Notes under the pieces: generated by a model
The model's input: the letters and a program-made list of their open reading frames with translations, nothing else
Databases searched by the model: none
What the model was told of the DNA's origin: nothing
Part shown: positions 3,393-20,059 of the stretch, piece after piece
How positions within the stretch are numbered: the first letter of the stretch is position 1
How the letters are laid out: each line of letters begins with the position of its first letter
IMG/VR virus record: IMGVR_UViG_3300005533_000241
Coordinates: 1 to 24,240 of that record
Source of the DNA: a virus
Reading direction: 5' to 3' (one strand)
Length of the DNA stretch: 24,240 bases
Position numbers and translations under genes: made by a program

Positions 3393-4718
3393 CTATTGCA
3401 TTGCCTCCACTGCATCAGCAGCGATGATGAAATCGGAGCTGCCTGCATTCTTTGTGTTGGTTGGAGAGATTTTTACCCGGTGAAGTCCGAATTGGATATT
3501 CTGCACGGTAAGCACCGGCGCAGAAGCAGTTAGCACAGGCGCGAACATGTCGACGTTGCCAACGCCAACTCCATCAATGAACGCCTGGGCGATGCCCATG
3601 TCCGTGTTGCGAGGAGACCAGAGACGGAAGCCATAGCCCAGGTAAATCCACTCTGCTGCATCGGCTGGAGACGTGCCCGGAGACCAGTAAGCGAAGCCAT
3701 TGAAGTAAGCCGGGTTGGGATTGGGAGCGGGAAGTTCCACGACAGCATTGGTTGTGGATGTGTATACACTCGGTGCAGTGCCGGATTCCAACTGCCAGCC
3801 CCATGCAGTAACCTTCGTGCCGGCAGCTCCGGGAATTGTGAGACCGGCAAGGATCAATCCGCGATTATTGGCCCCGAAACCGGATGAGGTAAAGCTGAAT
3901 CGCTGCGGCGCAGTTGTGAGTGTCAAAGGTATGGAATTCGTGGCTATGCTGGTATCCGAGAAATTCAACGTGACGCCTGGAAGTGCAGCCGCTCCTGGAG
4001 GAACTGCTAGATAGCATGACACCGTGAATGATTGAGATGGGCGCGGGAAATAGGCAACTGGCTGAAATATGCTGGCAAAGTTAATGAAAGATCCACCACC
4101 CTTGGTAAGCACGTCGGCCAGTTGGCCACCATTTGGATCTGGCGCGCTATCGGCTAGAACAGAACTTCCTCCGTCGAAAAACCAACCTCCCGGCGTATTG
4201 TTTACGGGCGTCGTGTTTTCCATGTCTTGAGAAAACAAGAGCAAGTTCTTAGTCCTATGGTCCCAATTGCCAGTGAGCTTTACAAGGTCGGCACCAAAGC
4301 CGTCGCGCTCATCAAACATGATCGAGTCGATTCCCCATGTGGACGGATACTGAAACATAGGCAGTCCGGGAATCACCACAAAGGTTGCCGTGATGTTCAC
4401 TTTGTCGTTGCCGATGATTTCATATTGAGGCTCGTCCTGAAACTGACCGCTGTAATAGCGCCCGCCATCGATGTCGTACAGGGTGAAGAAATCCTGCGAG
4501 TACTGACGGAACCATTGCCGCAATCCGTTGTATGTGGAGAATTGCCGGTTATTCCATTGAAGAGAAAACACCGGGCCGCGAGCCACAACACGCTTGGCAA
4601 ATACGCGCCCACTGCGCGCCTGAGCCCGGGCGACCGTGCTCGGATCAACTATGCGAAGCGGATATTCGGGATTAAACACGCTTGATGAAGTTGGGTTGAG
4701 AATATTGTTTTGGCTCAT
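3393..4718 (-). CDS. distal tail protein (DUF2460-like) with inserted carbohydrate-binding-like domain, 441 aa
   Basis: This gene overlaps the tape-measure stop by four bases (ATGA), the usual slot for a distal tail protein. Residues ~15-125 (YPLRIVDPSTVARAQARSG, VFSLQWNNRQFSTYNGLRQW, FFTLYDIDGGRYYSGQF) resemble the DUF2460 tail-tip family: a beta-sandwich ring that joins tube and tip. Residues ~155-320 form a second module that begins NLLLFSQDMENTTPV and ends WGWQLESGTAPSVYTSTT. This start and end are characteristic of jelly-roll carbohydrate-binding-like modules in phage tail proteins, and suggest a sugar-binding decoration on the tip ring. The remaining C-terminal ~120 residues are beta-rich and unassigned. 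Confidence is good for a tail-tip role and moderate for the domain boundaries. Confidence 0.7.
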   Translation of the reverse strand: MSQNNILNPTSSSVFNPEYPLRIVDPSTVARAQARSGRVFAKRVVARGPVFSLQWNNRQFSTYNGLRQWFRQYSQDFFTLYDIDGGRYYSGQFQDEPQYEIIGNDKVNITATFVVIPGLPMFQYPSTWGIDSIMFDERDGFGADLVKLTGNWDHRTKNLLLFSQDMENTTPVNNTPGGWFFDGGSSVLADSAPDPNGGQLADVLTKGGGSFINFASIFQPVAYFPRPSQSFTVSCYLAVPPGAAALPGVTLNFSDTSIATNSIPLTLTTAPQRFSFTSSGFGANNRGLILAGLTIPGAAGTKVTAWGWQLESGTAPSVYTSTTNAVVELPAPNPNPAYFNGFAYWSPGTSPADAAEWIYLGYGFRLWSPRNTDMGIAQAFIDGVGVGNVDMFAPVLTASAPVLTVQNIQFGLHRVKISPTNTKNAGSSDFIIAADAVEAMQ

Positions 4719-7700
4719 ACCTTACCCTCTTGCTTAGCGCGGTTCAGCGCGGCAAGGATCTGGTCGATGCCGCCGTTACGCAACCATCTTTCATCCACGC
4801 TCTGCGCTTGAATGAGAGAACCGTGAATGTGAATATCGCCACCAACGGAACTGCCGCCATTAATGCGTTGCAAGGTTTGCAAATTATCGGCAGTGGAAGA
4901 AGCATTCACGACGAACTCGCCCTTACGAAGAACAGCGTGCAGTTCTCCTGGGACAGTGGCGAAGCTGGAATAGGACGAAGACACATAGCCTCCATCATGA
5001 AATTGTGGAGGTCCGAAAAGCAGTCCGGATCTGCGCTGGCGCTCCACTTCGAACGAGTCGATATCTTTGTCGGCCGCCAAGATCGCTGGATGTACCTTGT
5101 TTTTCCAGACGCTCTTTCCTTCGTCCTTTAACTTCTTCAACTCATCTTCGGCCTGCTGATCGAGCTGATCGAGTTGCTGGTGTGCGCTCAGCGAGTCAAG
5201 CTGGAAGCTCTTGTACTCATCCTCAATTTTTTGAATTGCTGGCTGAATTTGCTTAGTGAAATAGTCGTTGGCTTCGCGCTTGCGCTTGCTACCCCCAAAT
5301 AAGCCGCCAAAGATTCCTCCAAGCAACCCAACAATTCCACCTACCACCAAGCCAATGGGACCGCCAATGCCGGAGATAAGGCCCAGCAGTGCGCCGATCC
5401 CAATGCCGCCGCCAGCTCCAGCAAGAGCGCCAGCCAAAGGTCCGTGTTGCAATCCAACGCCAAAACCAAGTAGACCGCCACCGGCGGCCGAAGCCAGACC
5501 CAAGCCAAGCGCTCCAGAGATGAGGCCGGATGCAAGCCCGAAAGGATTCAACGCCGCGAACAAAGGCAGCGACGCACCCAGCAGTCCGAGCTTTCCGCCA
5601 ACAGCGTTGCCTAGCAATGGCAACAGTCCGGCAGTGAGACCGATGCCAGCGCCGCCAGCGCTGAATAGATTTTTCAGCCCACCAAGCAACCCGCCCTGCA
5701 CCTGGGGAGCGCGCAAAGGTTGAGTGATCGTGTCAGCGAAGCTAGCGGTGCTAAGTGCGCCCGATGGTGTTAGAAGGCTACTGCCGAAAGAGGATGTGGA
5801 GCCACTTGGAGCAAATGGCGGAGTTACGCCGGTTGTGCCACCGCCAAACGGAGCGCCACTGAGACCAAACAGCGATGAAAGATCGGGGCCGGATGACGCT
5901 GCGGGAACGGATGCCGTCGATCCGCCGCCCAGCGGAAGTCCACCCAGACCAAACACACCGGGAGCAGTTGCGTTGGCTCCGGACGAAATGAATGGTGGAG
6001 TTCCTGACGCTGTGCCACCACCGCCAAATAGAGGACCGAGCAAACCACCAAGTGGATTTCCTGCACCGCCACCGCCGCCGCCGAAGACTCCAGCACCGAC
6101 AGAGCCTTGTCCGAAGACGATAGAACCAAGAATGTTGCCAGCTCCGGACTTCATGGAACCCATGGTGAGAAGCCATTGCGCAAGAATCTGAAAAAACAGG
6201 TGCTCCATGTTCTTCAAAATCGTTTGGCCGATCTTGCCTGAACCAATGTCGTTAAAAACACTCTCAAGTTCGCTGCCGAGTTGTTGCGTGAGCTTTTCGT
6301 TTTCAGCAATGATCTTCTCGTTTATTTCGGCATGGACTGCGGCGCGCTCGGCCTCGGCAGCAGACTCAATCGCAACGTACTCCTGGCTACCGGCCTTATA
6401 TTTACTGAGCTGCGACTGCTCCTGCTTATCGATGGTCAGCAATCGCTTATTACTCTCTACTTGAATTTGGGCATAGGCTTTGAGCCACGGTGGAACCGTT
6501 GCCAGCGCTGCAGCGGCTTCAGCATCTCTTTGCCGCTCTGCCGCTTGCTCAAGCACCTGCGCCCTTTCCTCGGCAGCCTGATTTCTTCCTGCAGTAATCT
6601 CAGCATCAGTTGCAGTCCAAAGCGCTTGTTCCTTCTGGGTAAGTGAGACAAGACGTTCAAGCTCAAGAGATGTAAGGTGTTCACCAGCCTGCGAAAGAAT
6701 ATTTTTGCGCTCATCTTCGAACTGTTTGATTTTGAGGTTGCGCTCCGCGTTGAGGCGGTCCTCACCCTGAAGCGTAGAGAGTTGCTGTTCAAGGATGAAG
6801 TCCTGAGTACTCTGCTCTACCTTGGAGATTTCAAGATTAAGAGCACGAATTTTGATGGCGGCCTGCTGATGGATTGCGACCTCACGTTCCTTAATGTCTT
6901 TGAGGGTAATTAGGCTGCGCTGCCGTAGCTGTTCCACCTCTCGAATCGAGAACTCCTCGTCGGCACGGATCTTATCTTCGTCGTGTAGTGATTCATCTGC
7001 CACTTGGTGGCGCAGAGCGAGAGTTTGCTCTGTTGCCTGGCGCTCAAGGTCAACGATCTGCGCGGTGGAGATCTTATGGGCTGCAGCAACAGCTCTTTGG
7101 TATTCCTGGGAGTTACGAGACAAGACTCCGAACTGGTCATTTAGTGCTTTGAGCGCCTGCTGTTGTTCGACAGCAATCTTTGCAAAGCCAGTCTTACCTG
7201 CCAATGCAGCTTGCTTTTCGGTAGAGATAACTATTTCTTCCAATTGTTGTCGCTCATGTTCGAGCAGTTTCTCCTTCTGTTCTTCAAGACCCTTAGCCTC
7301 AGCGTTTAATCGATTCAACTGAGTCTGAGATTCAAGTTCGGCACCTTGACTCGCATTGCCTTCTGTAAACGCATCCAACTCGGCTGCATCGGCATTACGT
7401 TGACCTGATTGATCTGAGAGTTGTTTTTTCTTCTCTTCGATATCGGCAAGTCTAGTATTGATCTCGTTCAAGTGTTCTAAGCTGGCACCGAGAGTTCCCG
7501 GTTCAATGAAATTCTTCCTGCTGGCCTGGATTGTCTCCTGCTCCATCCTCTTGATTTCTTCCGTATAGCCGCCCATGTCGTCGGTGATCTCGATGATCTT
7601 TTTGCCGATTTCACCGATAACTGGAATAACAGCAGCGAAAATGGATGCTCCAAAGGCCGCTTTAAAGACAGGCCCCAGAAGAGAGCTATGCGCGATCACG

Positions 7701-8041
7701 TTTTCGAGAGCGCGAGGCATCTCTACGCCTAACGTGCGGGTAATAAGTTGACCGGCGATATGTGCTCGCCGTTCTTCGGACTCAATGCCCTTGAACGCGC
7801 TTTCAGCCTTGTTATCCGCAGCCGCAAGACCGAATGTTCTGCGGAAGATCTCTTCCATTTTTTCTGCTTCGGTTTGCGTCCCTTTCAGGGCATTGCTGGT
7901 TTCATCTATGGCGGACTTGCTGCCGGTTGCCCAGGCTTTAACACCAGCAAAGAAATCAAAAAACTTTTTCTTCAGGTTATCGATCAGCAAAGGTGCTCCA
8001 CCTGCATCAAGATGGAATTCAAGCTCCAACTGTGTAGACAC
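4715..8041 (-). CDS. tail tape measure protein, 1108 aa
   Basis: The longest gene in the window. It sets tail length, fills the tube and is ejected with the DNA. Residues ~160-610 are almost continuous charged coiled coil, rich in Glu, Gln, Lys and Leu. A low-complexity Gly/Ser/Pro stretch (~residues 640-760) has degenerate repeats of the type FGGGGTASGTPPF. A long Gly/Ala/Leu-rich hydrophobic stretch (~790-920) has the glycine-zipper look of membrane-active tape-measure segments. The C-terminus has FHDGGYV followed by VPGELHAVLRKGEFVVN, the common end motif of tape measures in this group. The start is GTG, directly after the TAA of the upstream gene, with a GGAG site about 9 bases before it. 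If tail length scales as ~0.15 nm per residue, the tail would be roughly 160 nm (inference). Confidence 0.92.
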   Translation of the reverse strand: MSTQLELEFHLDAGGAPLLIDNLKKKFFDFFAGVKAWATGSKSAIDETSNALKGTQTEAEKMEEIFRRTFGLAAADNKAESAFKGIESEERRAHIAGQLITRTLGVEMPRALENVIAHSSLLGPVFKAAFGASIFAAVIPVIGEIGKKIIEITDDMGGYTEEIKRMEQETIQASRKNFIEPGTLGASLEHLNEINTRLADIEEKKKQLSDQSGQRNADAAELDAFTEGNASQGAELESQTQLNRLNAEAKGLEEQKEKLLEHERQQLEEIVISTEKQAALAGKTGFAKIAVEQQQALKALNDQFGVLSRNSQEYQRAVAAAHKISTAQIVDLERQATEQTLALRHQVADESLHDEDKIRADEEFSIREVEQLRQRSLITLKDIKEREVAIHQQAAIKIRALNLEISKVEQSTQDFILEQQLSTLQGEDRLNAERNLKIKQFEDERKNILSQAGEHLTSLELERLVSLTQKEQALWTATDAEITAGRNQAAEERAQVLEQAAERQRDAEAAAALATVPPWLKAYAQIQVESNKRLLTIDKQEQSQLSKYKAGSQEYVAIESAAEAERAAVHAEINEKIIAENEKLTQQLGSELESVFNDIGSGKIGQTILKNMEHLFFQILAQWLLTMGSMKSGAGNILGSIVFGQGSVGAGVFGGGGGGAGNPLGGLLGPLFGGGGTASGTPPFISSGANATAPGVFGLGGLPLGGGSTASVPAASSGPDLSSLFGLSGAPFGGGTTGVTPPFAPSGSTSSFGSSLLTPSGALSTASFADTITQPLRAPQVQGGLLGGLKNLFSAGGAGIGLTAGLLPLLGNAVGGKLGLLGASLPLFAALNPFGLASGLISGALGLGLASAAGGGLLGFGVGLQHGPLAGALAGAGGGIGIGALLGLISGIGGPIGLVVGGIVGLLGGIFGGLFGGSKRKREANDYFTKQIQPAIQKIEDEYKSFQLDSLSAHQQLDQLDQQAEDELKKLKDEGKSVWKNKVHPAILAADKDIDSFEVERQRRSGLLFGPPQFHDGGYVSSSYSSFATVPGELHAVLRKGEFVVNASSTADNLQTLQRINGGSSVGGDIHIHGSLIQAQSVDERWLRNGGIDQILAALNRAKQEGKV

Positions 8042-8431
8042 TTAGCGAAGCTCCTTTCTGCATTTGTGGCAACGCATGCTGACTGTGCTGTACTGGAAAT
8101 AGCCGCAGTAACGGCACGGCGGGTGCTTGGTTACAAATTCCTGACGCGCAGCTTCTATTGCGCGAAGTCCCTCAGCTTCGCCATCTGTGAGGTCAAATTG
8201 GACTCCGGCACCGATCATGGATTTGAGCCACAGAACATAGACGACAAAGTCTCTATACCCAGGGGACAGGCTGCTGTTAGGAGACAGCTTTGCCAGCAAG
8301 GCGTCATCGATGTCACCGGATATCAAGGCGTTGGCAAGAGCGCGATCCGCGTCGTGGCGGTGGAGTTGCTCTTCGAACAACTCCAACGCCGCTATGCGCA
8401 CTCCGTCATGATCCTGCGAGACGGTGATCAT
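8042..8431 (-). CDS. candidate tail assembly chaperone partner with C-terminal zinc ribbon, 129 aa
   Basis: A small gene just upstream of the tape measure, where siphoviruses carry the second tail-assembly chaperone (gpT of the lambda G/GT pair). It overlaps the upstream gene by ATGA and abuts the tape-measure start. Residues 1-100 look helical and contain DFVVYVLWLKSMIGAG. The C-terminus has Cys106, Cys109, Cys121 and Cys124 (C-X2-C-X11-C-X2-C), a zinc-ribbon-like knuckle with basic residues around it. I see no slippery heptamer at the end of the upstream gene, so expression probably relies on coupled initiation and not on the frameshift used by lambda. The chaperone role is inferred from position only; the cysteine motif is directly visible. 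Confidence 0.55.
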   Translation of the reverse strand: MITVSQDHDGVRIAALELFEEQLHRHDADRALANALISGDIDDALLAKLSPNSSLSPGYRDFVVYVLWLKSMIGAGVQFDLTDGEAEGLRAIEAARQEFVTKHPPCRYCGYFQYSTVSMRCHKCRKELR

Positions 8432-9195
8432 TCACCCTGCCCGGCATCTGCAGATTTAGAAGCTCCAGCAAAGAGAAGCTCAACAGCCTTGACTTTGTGA
8501 AATCCATCCATATCGTTACGGATATCGTTCAGGTCGGTTAAAGGCTGATCCCGGACCTTGTAGCCGTCGACGCTCAGAATCAACTCATCATAAAAAGAGA
8601 AAAGAAGCCTGTGCCGCAGAGCATGGATGGTTTTTCCATTGCGGCTCCCACCAACAACACGGCTCTCGCTGCTGGCTCGGTAAAACTTACGCCGATGCTC
8701 TGCGGTCACTGGAGCAAAGCGGTGAATCAGCCCTTCATAGCCACTCATCTTGCCGGGTTCCGTAATTCCCCACGCGGCCGTGAGTCCAACTTCTATGCAC
8801 TCAGGATCAAAGGGGCGATCCTCGCCGAACCCATCACAAGGGCCGACGAACCGAAGCAGCCATGCTGCTGGCCGCAAATGGCGCGGCATGATCTTCGCCT
8901 GCCATCCAGGCTTAGAAGCGAAATCTCCGCGATATCCCTCGACGCGGATGAGTTTTTGCTGGACAAGATCAATGCCGGGATTCTCCATATCCAGCACGGT
9001 GAGTTGCGATTCCCGCTGGTTCTGCGTGGTGTATACAACCCCTTCAAAATAGGTTTGCCAATCGCCCTGCGTTAGGCGAGAGAAATAGAACGTGTAGGGA
9101 AACTTGCCATCAATAAAGGACACAGCCCTCTCGCCATCGAGCGGCAACAAGGCTCCATCACTGATTTTTTGCAGCACCGGCTGTGTATCTTCCAT
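8428..9195 (-). CDS. phage tail-region protein, candidate tail assembly chaperone, 255 aa
   Basis: I do not recognise the family with certainty. The gene lies between the tail tube/Acb2 pair and the zinc-ribbon protein, upstream of the tape measure, the place of the first tail-assembly chaperone. Residues 1-60 are beta-rich (ALLPLDGERAVSFIDGKFPY, FYFSRLTQGDWQTYFEG), the middle contains RHLRPAAWLLRFVGPCDG, and the C-terminal half is charged and partly helical. The ATG has a GGAG site 8 bases upstream. Its stop overlaps the next start (ATGA). The protein is longer than lambda gpG (about 140 residues), so a different tail role is possible. Confidence 0.5.
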   Translation of the reverse strand: MEDTQPVLQKISDGALLPLDGERAVSFIDGKFPYTFYFSRLTQGDWQTYFEGVVYTTQNQRESQLTVLDMENPGIDLVQQKLIRVEGYRGDFASKPGWQAKIMPRHLRPAAWLLRFVGPCDGFGEDRPFDPECIEVGLTAAWGITEPGKMSGYEGLIHRFAPVTAEHRRKFYRASSESRVVGGSRNGKTIHALRHRLLFSFYDELILSVDGYKVRDQPLTDLNDIRNDMDGFHKVKAVELLFAGASKSADAGQGE

Positions 9196-9254
9196 TTGAT
9201 TCGCTCCAAGTTGTAAATGAATGATCGGAATTGTTCTGTCGAGCTATCTATCAA

Positions 9255-9328
9255 GCAGGTAGCGAAGCGATGCGACCTGCAGGCCGCGAAGCAGTGCGGC
9301 CAATCCGGAAGCGAAGCGGTGCTGCCGG
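9255..9328 (-). repeat. array of three tandem hairpins with conserved GCGAAGC-RR-TGC core
   Basis: The gap between the Acb2-like gene and the next tail gene contains three copies of a 12-base core, GCGAAGCGATGC (9262-9273), GCGAAGCAGTGC (9286-9297) and GCGAAGCGGTGC (9311-9322) on the plus strand, with start-to-start spacing of 24 and 25. Each core is flanked by different but mutually complementary arms: GCAGGT/ACCTGC (9255-9260 with 9275-9280), GGCC/GGCC (9282-9285 with 9298-9301) and CCGG/CCGG (9305-9308 with 9325-9328). The ends of the core (GCG and TGC) also pair. Arms that vary while keeping complementarity point to selected RNA or DNA structure. The 24/25 spacing breaks any reading frame, so it is unlikely to be coding. 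There is no U-tract on either side, so it is not a simple terminator. Strand is given as the sense of transcription. Confidence 0.6.
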
Positions 9329-9378
9329 TACTTCAAGAAGGAGGGACACGGCAAAAAATTGACGTGCCCACAATTGTT

Positions 9379-9588
9379 TCAGCAGATCCCGTCAAGAGCG
9401 ATGGCAGCATTGGCAGTCATCATGGACTCACGTATCTTCCTGATAGCTGCTGTCTGGTCTGCGCACTTGGGAGTGTTTTCAAGCACTGTCTTGGCGTATT
9501 GGTGCGCGGCCTCTCTGATTGCCGAATACTTCGGCAACTGATCCTCGCGAGGCGAGTGGTACTGGAAAATGGTTTCCAAGTTTTGCAT
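9379..9588 (-). CDS. Acb2/Tad1-type hairpin protein, predicted anti-CBASS cyclic-nucleotide sponge, 69 aa
   Basis: This small protein matches the Acb2/Tad1 hairpin family pattern as I know it: an FQYHSP motif near the N-terminus, then a long first helix (KYSAIREAAHQYAKTVLENTP), a short polar turn (KCADQT) and a second helix ending in M-ANAAIAL. Acb2 proteins are small phage proteins that form hexamers and bind cyclic oligonucleotides, so that CBASS effectors are not activated; some relatives also bind Thoeris signals. Length (~70) fits the family. Two ATG codons follow each other after AGGAGG; the second gives the better spacing and is used here (the first would add one Met, start 9591). It lies 12 bases after the tail tube stop, so it would be made late with virion proteins. 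Family call is fairly sure; which nucleotide it binds is unknown. Confidence 0.78.
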   Translation of the reverse strand: MQNLETIFQYHSPREDQLPKYSAIREAAHQYAKTVLENTPKCADQTAAIRKIRESMMTANAAIALDGIC

Positions 9589-9600
9589 CATTCCTCCTTT

Positions 9601-10914
9601 CTACGCCGCGATCATGTACGCGGGAACGTTATTGACTACCGTGGCCTGAAAAACCTCGTTCACGCCATTCTTGATGACGTCCTGATCTCCTGCGGTGAGT
9701 TGCCACGTCAGCTCGACTCCCTGCGACGCAAGCTGAGTGGTGAAGTAAATGCCAGGAAATTTCATCGAGAGCTGCTGAGAGGGCCCGCTGTTGATGTTGA
9801 TTTGAAGCTCTCGCGGAGTGTCGTTGATGAAAAGAGTGCGGATGTCATCGACATCCTTGGCCGCAACCTGCAATGTGCATGTTGCCCGCTGCTTTAGCAC
9901 CTTCATGAACGTGGCGAATAATCCGCCACCTGGAGCACGATGCGGAGACATGTCCATTGCCAGATGTACTTGCCATTCACGGACACGCTCTTTGATGCTG
10001 CTGAGAGCTGTGGTAGTCAGCGGCAACGCAGCTCCTGCAATGAGCCCGGCTGCAGGAAGCTGAAAAGGAGCACCGATGGCGTTGGGGGCGACATTCTGCT
10101 TCGTCTCCGTGCCTGTGGCGTTGGATAGATAACAATTCCAGCCAGTCGCTCCGGGCATGGCTGCAGGAGAGCCAACTTGCGGCACGCTGTTCGCTGGAAT
10201 GACGATTGACGCTTCAGGCCCGGCCAGAGTCTCGCCGGCGGCCGTCGTGTACGTGATTCTTACGAAATAGGTCGCGCCAGCCAGCGCCCCATTGACCACA
10301 GCGCTCAATACCGGCGCGAGCTGCGGAGAAGGAACGCCAATCAGAATATCCGTATCGGACGCCAGCAAATATTGAGGAACCGTTGTGGGAGGAAGCTGCA
10401 CAGCACCGTCGACAAACTTGCCGGACCCAACCATCTTGAATTGTGCCTGGGCTGTGCCGGTATCCTTGCCTGTAAGAACAAGGTCGGAGATCGCCAAGTC
10501 CGGCATCTGATAAAAGATGTCGTTGGTGTCCTGAAATAACAGGCTCGTAACGGGCATCTGATTTGAGGACTGCAGAAACTTGAACACGTGAGTAAACGGG
10601 CCAGCCCCACTCACAACCACCGATCCCATCGAAAAAGCCATCAGCCAGCCAGCAAGAAAATTGTCCAGATCCCAGGTGGCATCGAAGCCGGTCGTATATT
10701 GAGTGGGAATTCTCACTGTAGGCCACTGATGCCCTTTGTTGGCCAACTGCTCATCAGAAAAATACGTCTTTTGTATCTGAGCAAAGCTTGTGCCGGGAAT
10801 GCGAGGCCGTTGCGTGTAGCTGGCCAGCGCCACGGGCTGCTGCAGTGCCGCCTGTTTGTTGGGCGCAAGCGCCACGTTTCTGACTTCCAGTAAATGTTGC
10901 GGCTCGTAACTCAT
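9601..10914 (-). CDS. major tail (tube) protein with inserted Ig/FN3-like domain, 437 aa
   Basis: Position and sequence fit a siphovirus tail tube protein. Residues 1-195 and ~305-437 make up the tube part, with QWPTVRIPTQYTTGFDATWD, FNIDTP-like LFINDTPRELQININ and a typical C-terminal GVELTWQLTAGDQDV. Between them, residues ~198-298 form an inserted domain, GATYFVRITYTTAAGETLAGPEASIVIP and then GATGWNCYLSNATGTET in order, the pattern of fibronectin-III/Ig-like modules that decorate phage virions. Such a domain would project from each tube ring and could bind surfaces weakly. The start overlaps the stop of the upstream 89-residue gene (ATGA). There is no sheath gene next to it, which supports a non-contractile tail. 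The tube call rests on context as much as on sequence. Confidence 0.72.
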   Translation of the reverse strand: MSYEPQHLLEVRNVALAPNKQAALQQPVALASYTQRPRIPGTSFAQIQKTYFSDEQLANKGHQWPTVRIPTQYTTGFDATWDLDNFLAGWLMAFSMGSVVVSGAGPFTHVFKFLQSSNQMPVTSLLFQDTNDIFYQMPDLAISDLVLTGKDTGTAQAQFKMVGSGKFVDGAVQLPPTTVPQYLLASDTDILIGVPSPQLAPVLSAVVNGALAGATYFVRITYTTAAGETLAGPEASIVIPANSVPQVGSPAAMPGATGWNCYLSNATGTETKQNVAPNAIGAPFQLPAAGLIAGAALPLTTTALSSIKERVREWQVHLAMDMSPHRAPGGGLFATFMKVLKQRATCTLQVAAKDVDDIRTLFINDTPRELQININSGPSQQLSMKFPGIYFTTQLASQGVELTWQLTAGDQDVIKNGVNEVFQATVVNNVPAYMIAA

Positions 10915-16813: not shown

Positions 16814-18276
16814 TCGATGCTGCCTCCCCTCAGACCTTCGGCGACCTCGTGGATGCGCTTCTTGTAGAGAGCGCCGAGACTGCCCTGAAGTGAACCGAGC
16901 AAGCTGCGGACCTCTCGAAGATTGTGGCGTGCAACTGCGTCACTCAGACTGCTGATCGCGGCAGCACCGCTCGAAATCGCTGCGCCAGGGGCTCCCGATG
17001 GCGCCAGCACAACATCCTGCGGACCCGGCTCTGGTATGCCATAGCGGGATTGCATGTACTTTTTGGGAATTGGCACGCCCATGGCTTGTGCCTGGGAGTC
17101 GATGCCGATGCGCTGAACCAAGTCTTCTTCATCTTCCTTATCGATCACGAACTTCGGCGCAGGGACGTTCGGGCCAAAGTTCCAGATGGTGAGCCGTCGC
17201 AGCAGTTGATTGGTAATGATCGTCTCAAGCTGTCCAGCAAGCTCGATGTCTTTCAGGAAAAACATTTTGCGGTGTACGTCGCCCTGGCTGCGCGATCCTG
17301 TGCCACCTTCATTGCCGTAGCTGGTAAGCGTTTGACCCAAGATCACACGGGCGATCTTGTAGTTCATCTTGTCGTGCAGCTTTTCGTACACGGCTGGATT
17401 CTGCGTCCTCGACGATGTCAGCAATTCCTTCACGACTTGAAAATTGGAGGGAACGGCAATGGCAACCTTCTCGATCATCGCTTCAGCGGCGGCCAGGGCT
17501 TTACTCTTTTCGTCATCCGTCGCTCCGGGCTGATACATCACTGCCGCTGTGCCTGGACCCTTCTCAGCAAAGCGAAGCCAGAAGCGCACAGTCTGGCGCT
17601 TAAACCAACTCGGCCAGAACACACGGCGCAGCAAAGGTCGCCCGCGCCGATTTCCGCTCCTGGGGCGAAAACTGAAGATCAAGAATTTTTCTTCTGGTAC
17701 CAGATCGCCCGCGTCGACAGCGTACGGATTTTTGAGCAACCTCAAAGGGCCGGTTTGCAGCAAGTATTGAGGATTGAAGCTGAATAACTCCTGGGGCAGA
17801 TCATGAATGGATGCCAGCCCGGCCTGCCCGGCGCTCACGTCATATACGATCTCCGAGATCGACAGACCGTATCCGGCAGCGTCCAGCAAGGATTCCAACA
17901 CGCCGCGAAAGTTTGCGAGTCCTTCCACTTGCTGCTTGCAGAACTGCGCAGCGTCTTGAGCGGGTCCAGATTCGTCGCCTGGGAGAATCTGCCATTCACG
18001 CGACAGCACCGCCAACTTCAGCATTTCGAGCGCAGAGCCTACGTCGTCGTCTTTTTCTTCCAGCTCTCTGTAAAAGAGGAAAGCTGTGCGGAAATCCCGG
18101 ATCATAGCCGTCCAAATCACTGTGGGATCGCTGACGCCCACGAATGCGTTTGCCAGAGACAGCGTGGTCCTGGCTGCGCCCTCCAACACATCCGGCGTGG
18201 CCAACTCTCCCTTGGGGGGACTGGACGGCAGATCTGCCGCAGCCATGTTCACGAATTGTTGTTCGTTCTGGCTCAT
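16810..18276 (-). CDS. portal protein, DUF935 family (Mu gp29-like), 488 aa
   Basis: The protein matches DUF935 portals: AMIRDFRTAFLFYRELEEKDDDVGSALEMLKLAV near residue 75, LDAAGYGLSISEIVYD, a stem/clip part with FLIFSFRPRSGNRRGRPLLRRVFWPSWFKRQ and FWLRFAEKGPG, the KLHDKMNYKIARVILGQTLTSYGNEGGTGSRSQGDVH segment, and a helical C-terminus. It forms the ring through which DNA enters and leaves the head. The start chosen is the ATG at 18276 overlapping the terminase stop by four bases; the frame is open to 18369 but the extra 31 residues are Arg-rich and lie wholly inside the terminase gene. High confidence. Confidence 0.92.
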   Translation of the reverse strand: MSQNEQQFVNMAAADLPSSPPKGELATPDVLEGAARTTLSLANAFVGVSDPTVIWTAMIRDFRTAFLFYRELEEKDDDVGSALEMLKLAVLSREWQILPGDESGPAQDAAQFCKQQVEGLANFRGVLESLLDAAGYGLSISEIVYDVSAGQAGLASIHDLPQELFSFNPQYLLQTGPLRLLKNPYAVDAGDLVPEEKFLIFSFRPRSGNRRGRPLLRRVFWPSWFKRQTVRFWLRFAEKGPGTAAVMYQPGATDDEKSKALAAAEAMIEKVAIAVPSNFQVVKELLTSSRTQNPAVYEKLHDKMNYKIARVILGQTLTSYGNEGGTGSRSQGDVHRKMFFLKDIELAGQLETIITNQLLRRLTIWNFGPNVPAPKFVIDKEDEEDLVQRIGIDSQAQAMGVPIPKKYMQSRYGIPEPGPQDVVLAPSGAPGAAISSGAAAISSLSDAVARHNLREVRSLLGSLQGSLGALYKKRIHEVAEGLRGGSIE

Positions 18277-19622
18277 GCGTACACGTGCGCCTGGCTCGAT
18301 GAGCTGGCAAGAAAATCGGTTGATAGATTGGGACCGGATGCGGCGGCGGCCGCCAGCGCCAGGGACCAAAATTCGTCCGCGTGTCCCTGTTCGGTACGAG
18401 CCGCGTCAAAACGAAAGTGTCCAGTCGTACTGGTGTAGCGCTTTACCGCGTTAATCGAGCGTCGCAACCCGGGGCATGAAGCGATCCGGATGCGTCTCTC
18501 CTCGAACAATCGCTTCAGGTCGGTAGCCATCGCCTCTTTGTTCTCTATGTTGAAGACGACTTCTTCGACTTTGGTCCCATGCTTAAGTCGCAGATCTTCG
18601 GCCAACTGAGCGCCGATACCCGTAGCGTCGATGCAAGAGCGCCGAGCGCGGCGGGTTACCGGCTCGATGAGATCGAATTGCGCGCCAAAAGGAGTGCGTT
18701 CCATCACGTTCATGCGGCGCATCCACAACACGTCGCCAACCTTTTCAAGCGCGGTATCTACCGTGCGATCTTTTTTGCGGCCAATATCGACGCCTTCATA
18801 GATGTGGCCAACCAAATTCTCTACAGCCAGATCGACAGTAGCATCGGCACTCTCGCAGGAGACCACCAACTCCATGGGGATGTAGTTCTGTGCATCAGCA
18901 AGAAATGCGCAGCAGTACTCCTGCAGCCACGTGTCCTCATCTCCTGCAGCTTCTCGGAGAGCGGCAACGTCGACCGGACACCCTTCTTCCACGGCCGAGT
19001 AAATATCCAGCCAATGAACAGACCAGATTCCCTTCGTCCAGCGGCGCTCTTTCATGCCGCCGAGAGGATCGACACCAGCGGCACGGGCGATGTCCCAATA
19101 TTTCCCCGATTGGCCGTTGGGGGTGGAGATCACCTCAAGGCTGTGGCCACGGCTGATGATCGCCATAGCGCCGCGCCAGATCTTCATGGCGTCCCTGTGG
19201 AACGCGAACTCATCTAAAACCACATCGCCGGAGAAGCCGCGAATCGTGTCCGGATTGGCGGGCATGGCGATGATGCGCGATCCGTTGTGATGAAACGTGA
19301 TCTGATACGCCTTTTCCGTCGTATCCGGAAACTCGATTTCCTCAAAACTGAAGGCCTCTTTCACCGCTTGCAGATGGACTTTGCAGTATTCGATGGCCTC
19401 CTTCGATTGACGCTCCGACGCCGATATCCATACGGTCGTGCCTTTGGTAGCAAGACGACGGCGCACATGGCGCAAAGTGGTTGAAAATGTCAGGCCGGTC
19501 TGGCGGCCTTTCACCATCAGCTTGAATCGAGACTCATCCTGTATCCATCTCTTCTGGTAGGCGTACAGCACAACCAACGCCATCAGCGTGGCCAGCACGC
19601 CAGCTTTTTTTCTAGCGCTCAC
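18273..19622 (-). CDS. terminase large subunit (Mu gp28-like), 449 aa
   Basis: The ATPase part shows a Walker A-like KGRQTGLTFSTT (residues ~38-49, a degenerate form as in Mu-type terminases), a Walker B VVLDEF (134-139) and a coupling motif EVISTPNG (163-170). The C-terminal nuclease part has EGVDIGRKKDRT and SCIDATGIGAQLAEDL, with the metal-binding aspartates. The enzyme packages DNA through the portal and cuts it. Two GTG starts are possible: 19622 is preferred because GGAG lies 7 bases upstream and it forms a GTGA overlap with the endolysin stop; 19628 would add two residues with a ribosome site almost touching it. High confidence. Confidence 0.92.
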   Translation of the reverse strand: MSARKKAGVLATLMALVVLYAYQKRWIQDESRFKLMVKGRQTGLTFSTTLRHVRRRLATKGTTVWISASERQSKEAIEYCKVHLQAVKEAFSFEEIEFPDTTEKAYQITFHHNGSRIIAMPANPDTIRGFSGDVVLDEFAFHRDAMKIWRGAMAIISRGHSLEVISTPNGQSGKYWDIARAAGVDPLGGMKERRWTKGIWSVHWLDIYSAVEEGCPVDVAALREAAGDEDTWLQEYCCAFLADAQNYIPMELVVSCESADATVDLAVENLVGHIYEGVDIGRKKDRTVDTALEKVGDVLWMRRMNVMERTPFGAQFDLIEPVTRRARRSCIDATGIGAQLAEDLRLKHGTKVEEVVFNIENKEAMATDLKRLFEERRIRIASCPGLRRSINAVKRYTSTTGHFRFDAARTEQGHADEFWSLALAAAAASGPNLSTDFLASSSSQAHVYA

Positions 19623-20059
19623 TGCCACTCTCCAGTCTCAATCTGCTTGGCAATGCGAATCGCCCTTCCGCCAACCTGCTCAGCCCAGGATGATTTCAAC
19701 AGTTGCTGCGCTGCAAGCGTAAAGTGGCCGGATTCAATGGCAGCAAGAGCTTTCCGGAATTTGAGTAGTCCTTTCAGTCCAAGATTGAAAGACATGTTCA
19801 CCAGAGCTGATTGCCGGGAATCATCAAGGCGAGACACCCATGGCAGGGCCGCGGCCAGAGCATTGAAGTGCCTGCTGATGTCGTTGCACAGAAGGGATTG
19901 AGCCTCATCTTGTGTGATCCCAACCGACTCAAGGTTGCGCCCGTATCCGATTGTTAGGACTCCCCTAGAATCCCTGTAGGGCTTCAAGCGCAGACCTTCA
20001 TCTCTGGCAATCTGCGCAATCACGTTGCTCGACTTGAGTTGTTGCGATTGATCCTTCAT
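19619..20059 (-). CDS. endolysin, GH24 (T4-type) lysozyme, 146 aa
   Basis: The catalytic triad of T4-type lysozymes is visible: Glu21 in RDEGLRLKPYRD, Asp30 and Thr36 in GVLTIGYGRNL (E-X8-D-X5-T). Further family features are SLLCNDISRHFNAL, a SRQSALVNMSFNLGLKGLLKF segment and AEQVGGRAIRIAKQIETG at the end. It cleaves peptidoglycan to release progeny. There is no signal peptide or N-terminal anchor, so it needs a holin to reach the wall. The gene is embedded between small and large terminase genes: TAATG overlap upstream and GTGA overlap downstream. In Mu the lysozyme gene lies further upstream. High confidence for function. Confidence 0.93.
   Translation of the reverse strand: MKDQSQQLKSSNVIAQIARDEGLRLKPYRDSRGVLTIGYGRNLESVGITQDEAQSLLCNDISRHFNALAAALPWVSRLDDSRQSALVNMSFNLGLKGLLKFRKALAAIESGHFTLAAQQLLKSSWAEQVGGRAIRIAKQIETGEWQ

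Follow-up and report, generated by a model that had tools for sequence, protein, structure and literature searches.

A tandem array of octaloop hairpins in the leader of a probable tail-assembly chaperone gene, most likely a translational control element

The DNA analysed here (the window, 24,240 bases, an entire IMG/VR record) carries three tandem hairpins in front of p255, the gene of a probable tail-assembly chaperone. The functional strand of the array is the minus strand, i.e. the mRNA, and comparison with relatives strongly supports selection on the RNA hairpins. Their function is most likely translational control of p255: with moderate confidence, we read the array as a cis-acting RNA leader that controls p255 translation from the late tail transcript. 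The motif is new, although it belongs to a known kind of element, the phage translational leaders, within which its tandem-loop design is unusual.

The window contains exactly three copies of the GCGAAGCNNTGC pattern (9262, 9286 and 9311), all of them on the plus strand, and none of 100 shuffled sequences reached three copies (mean 0.19). A scan for the loop plus its stem recovers the same three hairpins (9256–9328) as the only ones on the minus strand and none on the plus strand, where shuffled sequence gives 0.01 per strand, and the three tandem hairpins of the original prediction are therefore real. Folding positions 9252–9332 as mRNA gives just three hairpins (−35.9 kcal/mol, z −3.46); the plus-strand fold of a wider stretch around the array has a z of −1.46. 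The array is intergenic (Table 1). The absence of a U-tract, also noted originally, is borne out by a terminator scan, which finds no terminator-like site at the array, and by the lack of a U-run after any of the hairpins, so an intrinsic terminator is rejected. The arms are self-complementary as described, but imperfectly so, as two of the three window stems have a mismatch beside the GC pairs. The core is not one block, as had been thought: its outer GC/GC are two base pairs of the stem, and what is conserved is the 8-nt loop.

Table 1. The hairpin array and the neighbouring genes and start signals in the window
Feature	Position	Strand	Remarks
Probable major tail tube protein	9601–10914	−	position; insert domain
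Acb2 (anti-CBASS cyclic-nucleotide sponge)	9379–9591	−	PF24729 above cut-off
Hairpin 1 (first in the mRNA)	9305–9328	−	CCGGCAGC-ACCGCUUC-GCUUCCGG; loop 9313–9320; fits unit model R1
Hairpin 2	9280–9303	−	UUGGCCGC-ACUGCUUC-GCGGCCUG; loop 9288–9295; fits unit model
Hairpin 3	9256–9279	−	CAGGUCGC-AUCGCUUC-GCUACCUG; loop 9264–9271; fits unit model
GGAGCGA, p255 Shine-Dalgarno region	9201–9207	−	can pair with UCGCUUC in the loop of hairpin 3
p255 start codon and codons 2–3	9187–9195	−	window AUGGAAGAU; relatives AUGGAAGCGG, exact complement of CCGCUUC
p255, probable tail-assembly chaperone, 255 aa	8428–9195	−	between tube and tape measure
p129	8042–8431	−	start overlaps p255 stop (ATGA)
Tape measure	4715–8041	−	gene list

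Relatives were collected by a tandem-core scan of viral contigs, a tail-tube search, a p255 search (in viral contigs, with an alignment of closer relatives) and searches of Acidobacteriaceae genomes, and their tube identity ranges from 50 to 100%. In the mRNA sense, each unit consists of a variable stem of 6–8 bp and an 8-nt loop, AHYRCUUC, in which the A and the CUUC are invariant across 31 distinct units. In these units all eight stem pairs vary on both sides with 88.7% of the cells paired, and the stems contain 68 double changes against 23.4 in shuffled sets. The covariation score is 0.675 against 0.209 after shuffling (0/500; kinship ignored), and sliding the partner abolishes the signal. 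G·U pairs outnumber A·C pairs 20 to 3, which identifies the mRNA as the selected molecule, rather than the complementary strand or the DNA. Even the GC ends of the core are replaced, by A-U or G·U pairs, in L086, L090, L091 and L121. Relatives swap the closing pairs compensatorily (AC..GT in L009 and L086, A-U in L091 and L121). A selected RNA structure, as proposed originally, is thus strongly supported, with arms that vary and loops that are kept, and every relative that has the region retains both core and pairing. The sequence GCGAAGC was considered as an extra-stable DNA mini-hairpin and rejected, since relatives show ACGAAGT or A-U closing and yet keep the octaloop; the G·U asymmetry likewise indicates the mRNA instead of a DNA-level role. 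The array has no match in an Rfam covariance-model search at E values up to 1, and no paper describing the motif was found in the open-access literature.

The array is located between the tube gene and p255 in every record of the group that holds both genes, and the two array-less records (L087 and L100) break off inside the tube gene or a short way past it. A scan with the unit model finds one array per genome, including a single one in a 3.7 Mb metagenome-assembled genome (MAG; G017). A dispersed intergenic palindrome of the REP type is rejected, because there is a single array per record and the tandem pattern is not dispersed in GTDB genomes. Most of the tandem-core matches outside this phage group (42 GTDB stretches and other viral contigs) lack pairing arms, and single-unit matches in Acidobacteriaceae genomes are mostly isolated and chance-like, except in G067 and G017. 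Acidobacteriaceae are very probably the hosts, because copies of the array reside in a MAG of that family (L081) and in a second genome of it (L121, from G067, with two hairpins and a p255 start that does not match the loop). The terminase large subunit of the window (18273–19628, minus strand) is 35–38% similar to those of B3-like transposable phages, a likeness that suggests a Mu/B3-type siphophage of Acidobacteria. The window also encodes a D12-class N6-adenine DNA methyltransferase (PF02086; 22807–23613, minus strand).

The genes flanking the array (tube, Acb2, p255, p129 and tape measure) are all on the minus strand and p255 is the next one, so the array lies in the p255 leader. In all 14 array genomes, 55–99 nt separate the last loop from the p255 AUG, whereas the gap between the upstream gene and the array can be anything between about 37 and about 400 nt and may or may not hold Acb2 or other small ORFs; the array therefore belongs to p255. 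It tracks p255 and not the tube or Acb2, which among the relatives occurs between tube and p255 only in L085, L092, L094 and L097. Sensing of phage RNA by CBASS was rejected as a link to Acb2 because the latter is missing from most array genomes. The tube protein has an insert domain (residues about 197–305) that resembles major tail proteins of Arthrobacter phages and is missing in the short tubes of many Acidobacteriaceae prophages.

Neither Pfam nor PHROG yields a match to the p255 product, and named phages have no homologue of it. Its predicted model (pLDDT 75) gives weak Foldseek matches to viral proteins (E about 2e-3 to 5e-2), some of them annotated as chaperones, and a weak fold match to HK97 2ob9 (Z 2.4). 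Together with the position of the gene, these matches make it a probable tail-assembly chaperone. As in HK97- and lambda-type phages, the gene is placed between tube and tape measure, but the protein is 255 residues long and has no detectable sequence similarity to their chaperones, and a separate zinc-ribbon ORF, p129, comes next and overlaps its gene. The p129 protein is helical and ends in a CxxC...CxxC zinc-ribbon-like motif retained in most relatives; its fold search gave no matches, and it is a candidate RNA-binding partner by inference. The ATGA overlap of p255 and p129 would suit translational coupling.

Array and gene are also linked by the complementarity of the loop to the p255 start. 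In 10 of the 14 array genomes the sequence at this start is AUG-GAAGCG(G), to which the loop heptamer CCGCUUC is complementary (6–7 Watson-Crick bp). Watson-Crick runs of at least six to ACCGCUUC are found at those ten p255 starts and at none of 104 other gene starts on the same contigs, a comparison that ignores kinship; with G·U allowed, the counts are 13 of 14 and 23 of 104. The p255 proteins of the ten genomes are 46–77% identical, and of their 78 conserved degenerate columns codons 2 (GAA) and 3 (GCG) alone are single-codon throughout. Across the coding sequence of the loci, 45% of the codons for Glu are GAA and 35% of those for Ala are GCG. Two more columns are also uniform in a nine-genome set, so the evidence from codon freezing is good but not overwhelming. 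No comparable freezing is seen at the tube and p129 starts. Kinship is ignored in these codon comparisons as well. Judged from these alignments, the p255 codons that match the loop are conserved at the nucleotide level.

The window itself departs from this pattern. Its codons 2–3 are GAAGAU, and with them the start heptamer is lost, as it is in L085. Its best match is UCGCUUC/GGAGCGA, only 7 bp with one G·U, which is equalled by 5.3% of random 42-mers, and several other genes of the window also reach a 7-bp match when G·U is allowed. Taking the window and L085 together, the matches are 6–7 bp and are equalled by 5–13% of random stretches. The mechanism proposed for the window is accordingly argued mainly from its relatives.

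The leaders of more distant prophages with a homologous p255 mostly contain one or two octaloop hairpins followed by a hairpin with a 5-nt loop (CCUUC, UCCUC, CCCUC or CCUCC) located 40–55 nt before the AUG. The 5′ half of the latter is complementary to the Shine-Dalgarno region of its own genome, e.g. GGGUCCUUC with GAAGGACCC. The covariation of the two is clear: duplexes of each leader with its own start sum to −201.5 kcal/mol, against −156.7 kcal/mol when shuffled among the 15 genomes (0/50,000; kinship ignored), and exact 5-mers between leader and Shine-Dalgarno are present in 10 of 15 against 3.9 expected (p 8e-5; kinship ignored). These prophages keep the octaloop although their starts do not match it, and the octaloop matches elsewhere in their leaders are short and inconsistent. 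The loop must thus have another partner or an older role; a protein may be an additional partner of it, or may have been its original one. In a third group (L180, L182–L184), read directly, the Shine-Dalgarno sequence is inside a stem, GAGACAYCU...AGGUGUCUC, adjoining the AUG. The conserved p255 leader of L180 (2650–3000), L182, L183, L184 and L198 is of this different type, with CCCGGAACGGGC...AACAAGCUGGCCGGG ahead of that motif, and it looks like another undescribed structured RNA. Leaders that pair with the Shine-Dalgarno sequence and leaders that enclose it in a stem thus both exist, so that p255-family leaders have repeatedly been built to cover the start.

Because the loops usually match the p255 start, they are probably a built-in brake on p255 protein. 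In the proposed mechanism, the three hairpins would offer the same loop, an A followed by a pyrimidine-rich heptamer ending in CUUC, and the heptamer would pair with the p255 start, at codons 2–3 after the AUG in most relatives and at the Shine-Dalgarno region in the window, hiding the start from ribosomes. One form of this pairing would be an H-type pseudoknot, in which the single A is the short loop and the seven loop bases make the second stem; the other would be a strand exchange in which one hairpin is opened. The geometry of the former is suitable, since a 1-nt loop before a 7-nt pairing strand fits H-type pseudoknots, and the first loop of the T4-type gene 32 pseudoknot is also 1 nt long. 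The heptamer and its target hardly vary in the array genomes. Nested folding opens one hairpin in some genomes, and it gives the start region other partners too. In cells, such pairing would repress p255, with the putative purpose of keeping the chaperone low relative to tube protein. Relief or reinforcement of the repression might come from a phage-encoded factor, for which the zinc-ribbon protein p129 and p255 itself are candidates. Why a single target should have three copies of the loop is left unexplained by the p255-leader reading.

Alternatively, p255, p129, the tube protein or a host protein could bind the octaloops, with three sites for cooperativity, and repress or activate p255, the complementarity of loop and start being secondary. 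We consider this rather unlikely, though it deserves to be weighed. The loop letters are kept where the arms vary, even in those distant prophages that lack a matching start, the loop is constant at 8 nt with its fixed A and CUUC, and operators of T4 gp43 and gp32 are found 40–67 nt upstream of the start (PMC3014915). The zinc-ribbon-like C-terminus of p129 is present in the array relatives and in most others, which fits a binder of the array, but these others include relatives with octaloop-less leaders. Moreover, protein binding predicts neither the exact complement of AUG-GAAGCGG, with its 10 of 14 against 0 of 104, nor the frozen codons.

Two further readings place the function of the array outside translation. 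The hairpins are stable, intergenic and preceded by a probably highly expressed structural gene, and could be exonuclease barriers that separate the tube/Acb2 part of the mRNA from the downstream tail genes. Some relatives have an extra strong hairpin directly after the tube gene; in L088, L092, L093 and L094 it has an A-rich loop (GCAGGGCGGAGCAAAAAAUCUUCGCCCUGC type), lacks a U-run, is followed by a similar stretch GGUCCAAAGAUGUGGUA, and is a possible transcript-end or processing element. A processing or stability role for the array is nevertheless improbable, since the spacing is constant to p255 and not to the upstream gene and neither the fixed loop sequence nor the start-codon complement would be needed; the originally suggested stability element for the tube/Acb2 mRNA is disfavoured further by the absence of Acb2 from most relatives. 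The tandem hairpins with fixed loops are also similar in form to put-like or boxB-like RNAs that act on RNA polymerase, here for antitermination in a late operon, a reading that beyond the hairpin form is no more than a lead. It is very improbable: the scan shows neither a nearby promoter on the gene strand nor a terminator at the array, the array is always tied to one gene, and the start-codon complement would stay unexplained. The boxB RNA of lambda N in particular is rejected, as its loop is a GNRNA-type pentaloop and not the 8-nt AHYRCUUC.

As a translational leader, the array resembles several known systems. Like a phage cis translational operator, it is a structured and conserved RNA a short way ahead of a single gene, and in most relatives its loops could cover the start region. 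The autogenous operators of genes 32 and 43 in T4 and RB69, at the distance from the start given above (PMC3014915), are also structured RNAs (a pseudoknot or hairpin) that control translation of a phage gene from upstream of its start. However, their genes and sequences are different, and here there are three tandem, nearly identical loops that are complementary to the start itself, with a binding protein that is only a candidate. In com/mom of phage Mu, a structure hides the start, and the loop of a hairpin close by is bound by Com, a small zinc-finger protein of the CCCC type that recognises CC(N)2-3GAG (PMC6483171). The p255 leader would likewise hide a start in an operon that encodes a zinc-ribbon-like protein, and the B3-like terminase adds to the Mu likeness, but CC(N)2-3GAG is absent from the loop, the sequence, gene and layout are unrelated, and p129 is only a candidate binder. 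Anti-Shine-Dalgarno leaders, such as RNA thermometers, r-protein leaders and riboswitch expression platforms, contain a strand complementary to the Shine-Dalgarno sequence or the start. The leader of the distant prophages is of exactly this kind, whereas a tandem octaloop array and pairing to codons 2–3 are unusual for it.

What is known of how phages balance tube, chaperone and tape-measure proteins mainly concerns frameshifting. Masking of the chaperone start by a conserved leader would add a second solution, one based on RNA, and would do so for Acidobacteria, whose phages have hardly been studied at the molecular level. The array motif shows strong covariation, is missing from Rfam and makes clear predictions for reporter and probing work. 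A bolder reading, which we consider less likely than not, is a new family of phage RNA switches, in which tandem, nearly identical octaloops serve as redundant antisense loops against the start of their own gene. One phage lineage would have produced at least three different start-masking leaders for this one chaperone gene (loop on codons 2–3, hairpin on Shine-Dalgarno, Shine-Dalgarno in a stem), possibly with release by the zinc-ribbon protein of the neighbouring gene. If true, such a family would let chaperone synthesis sense tail assembly.
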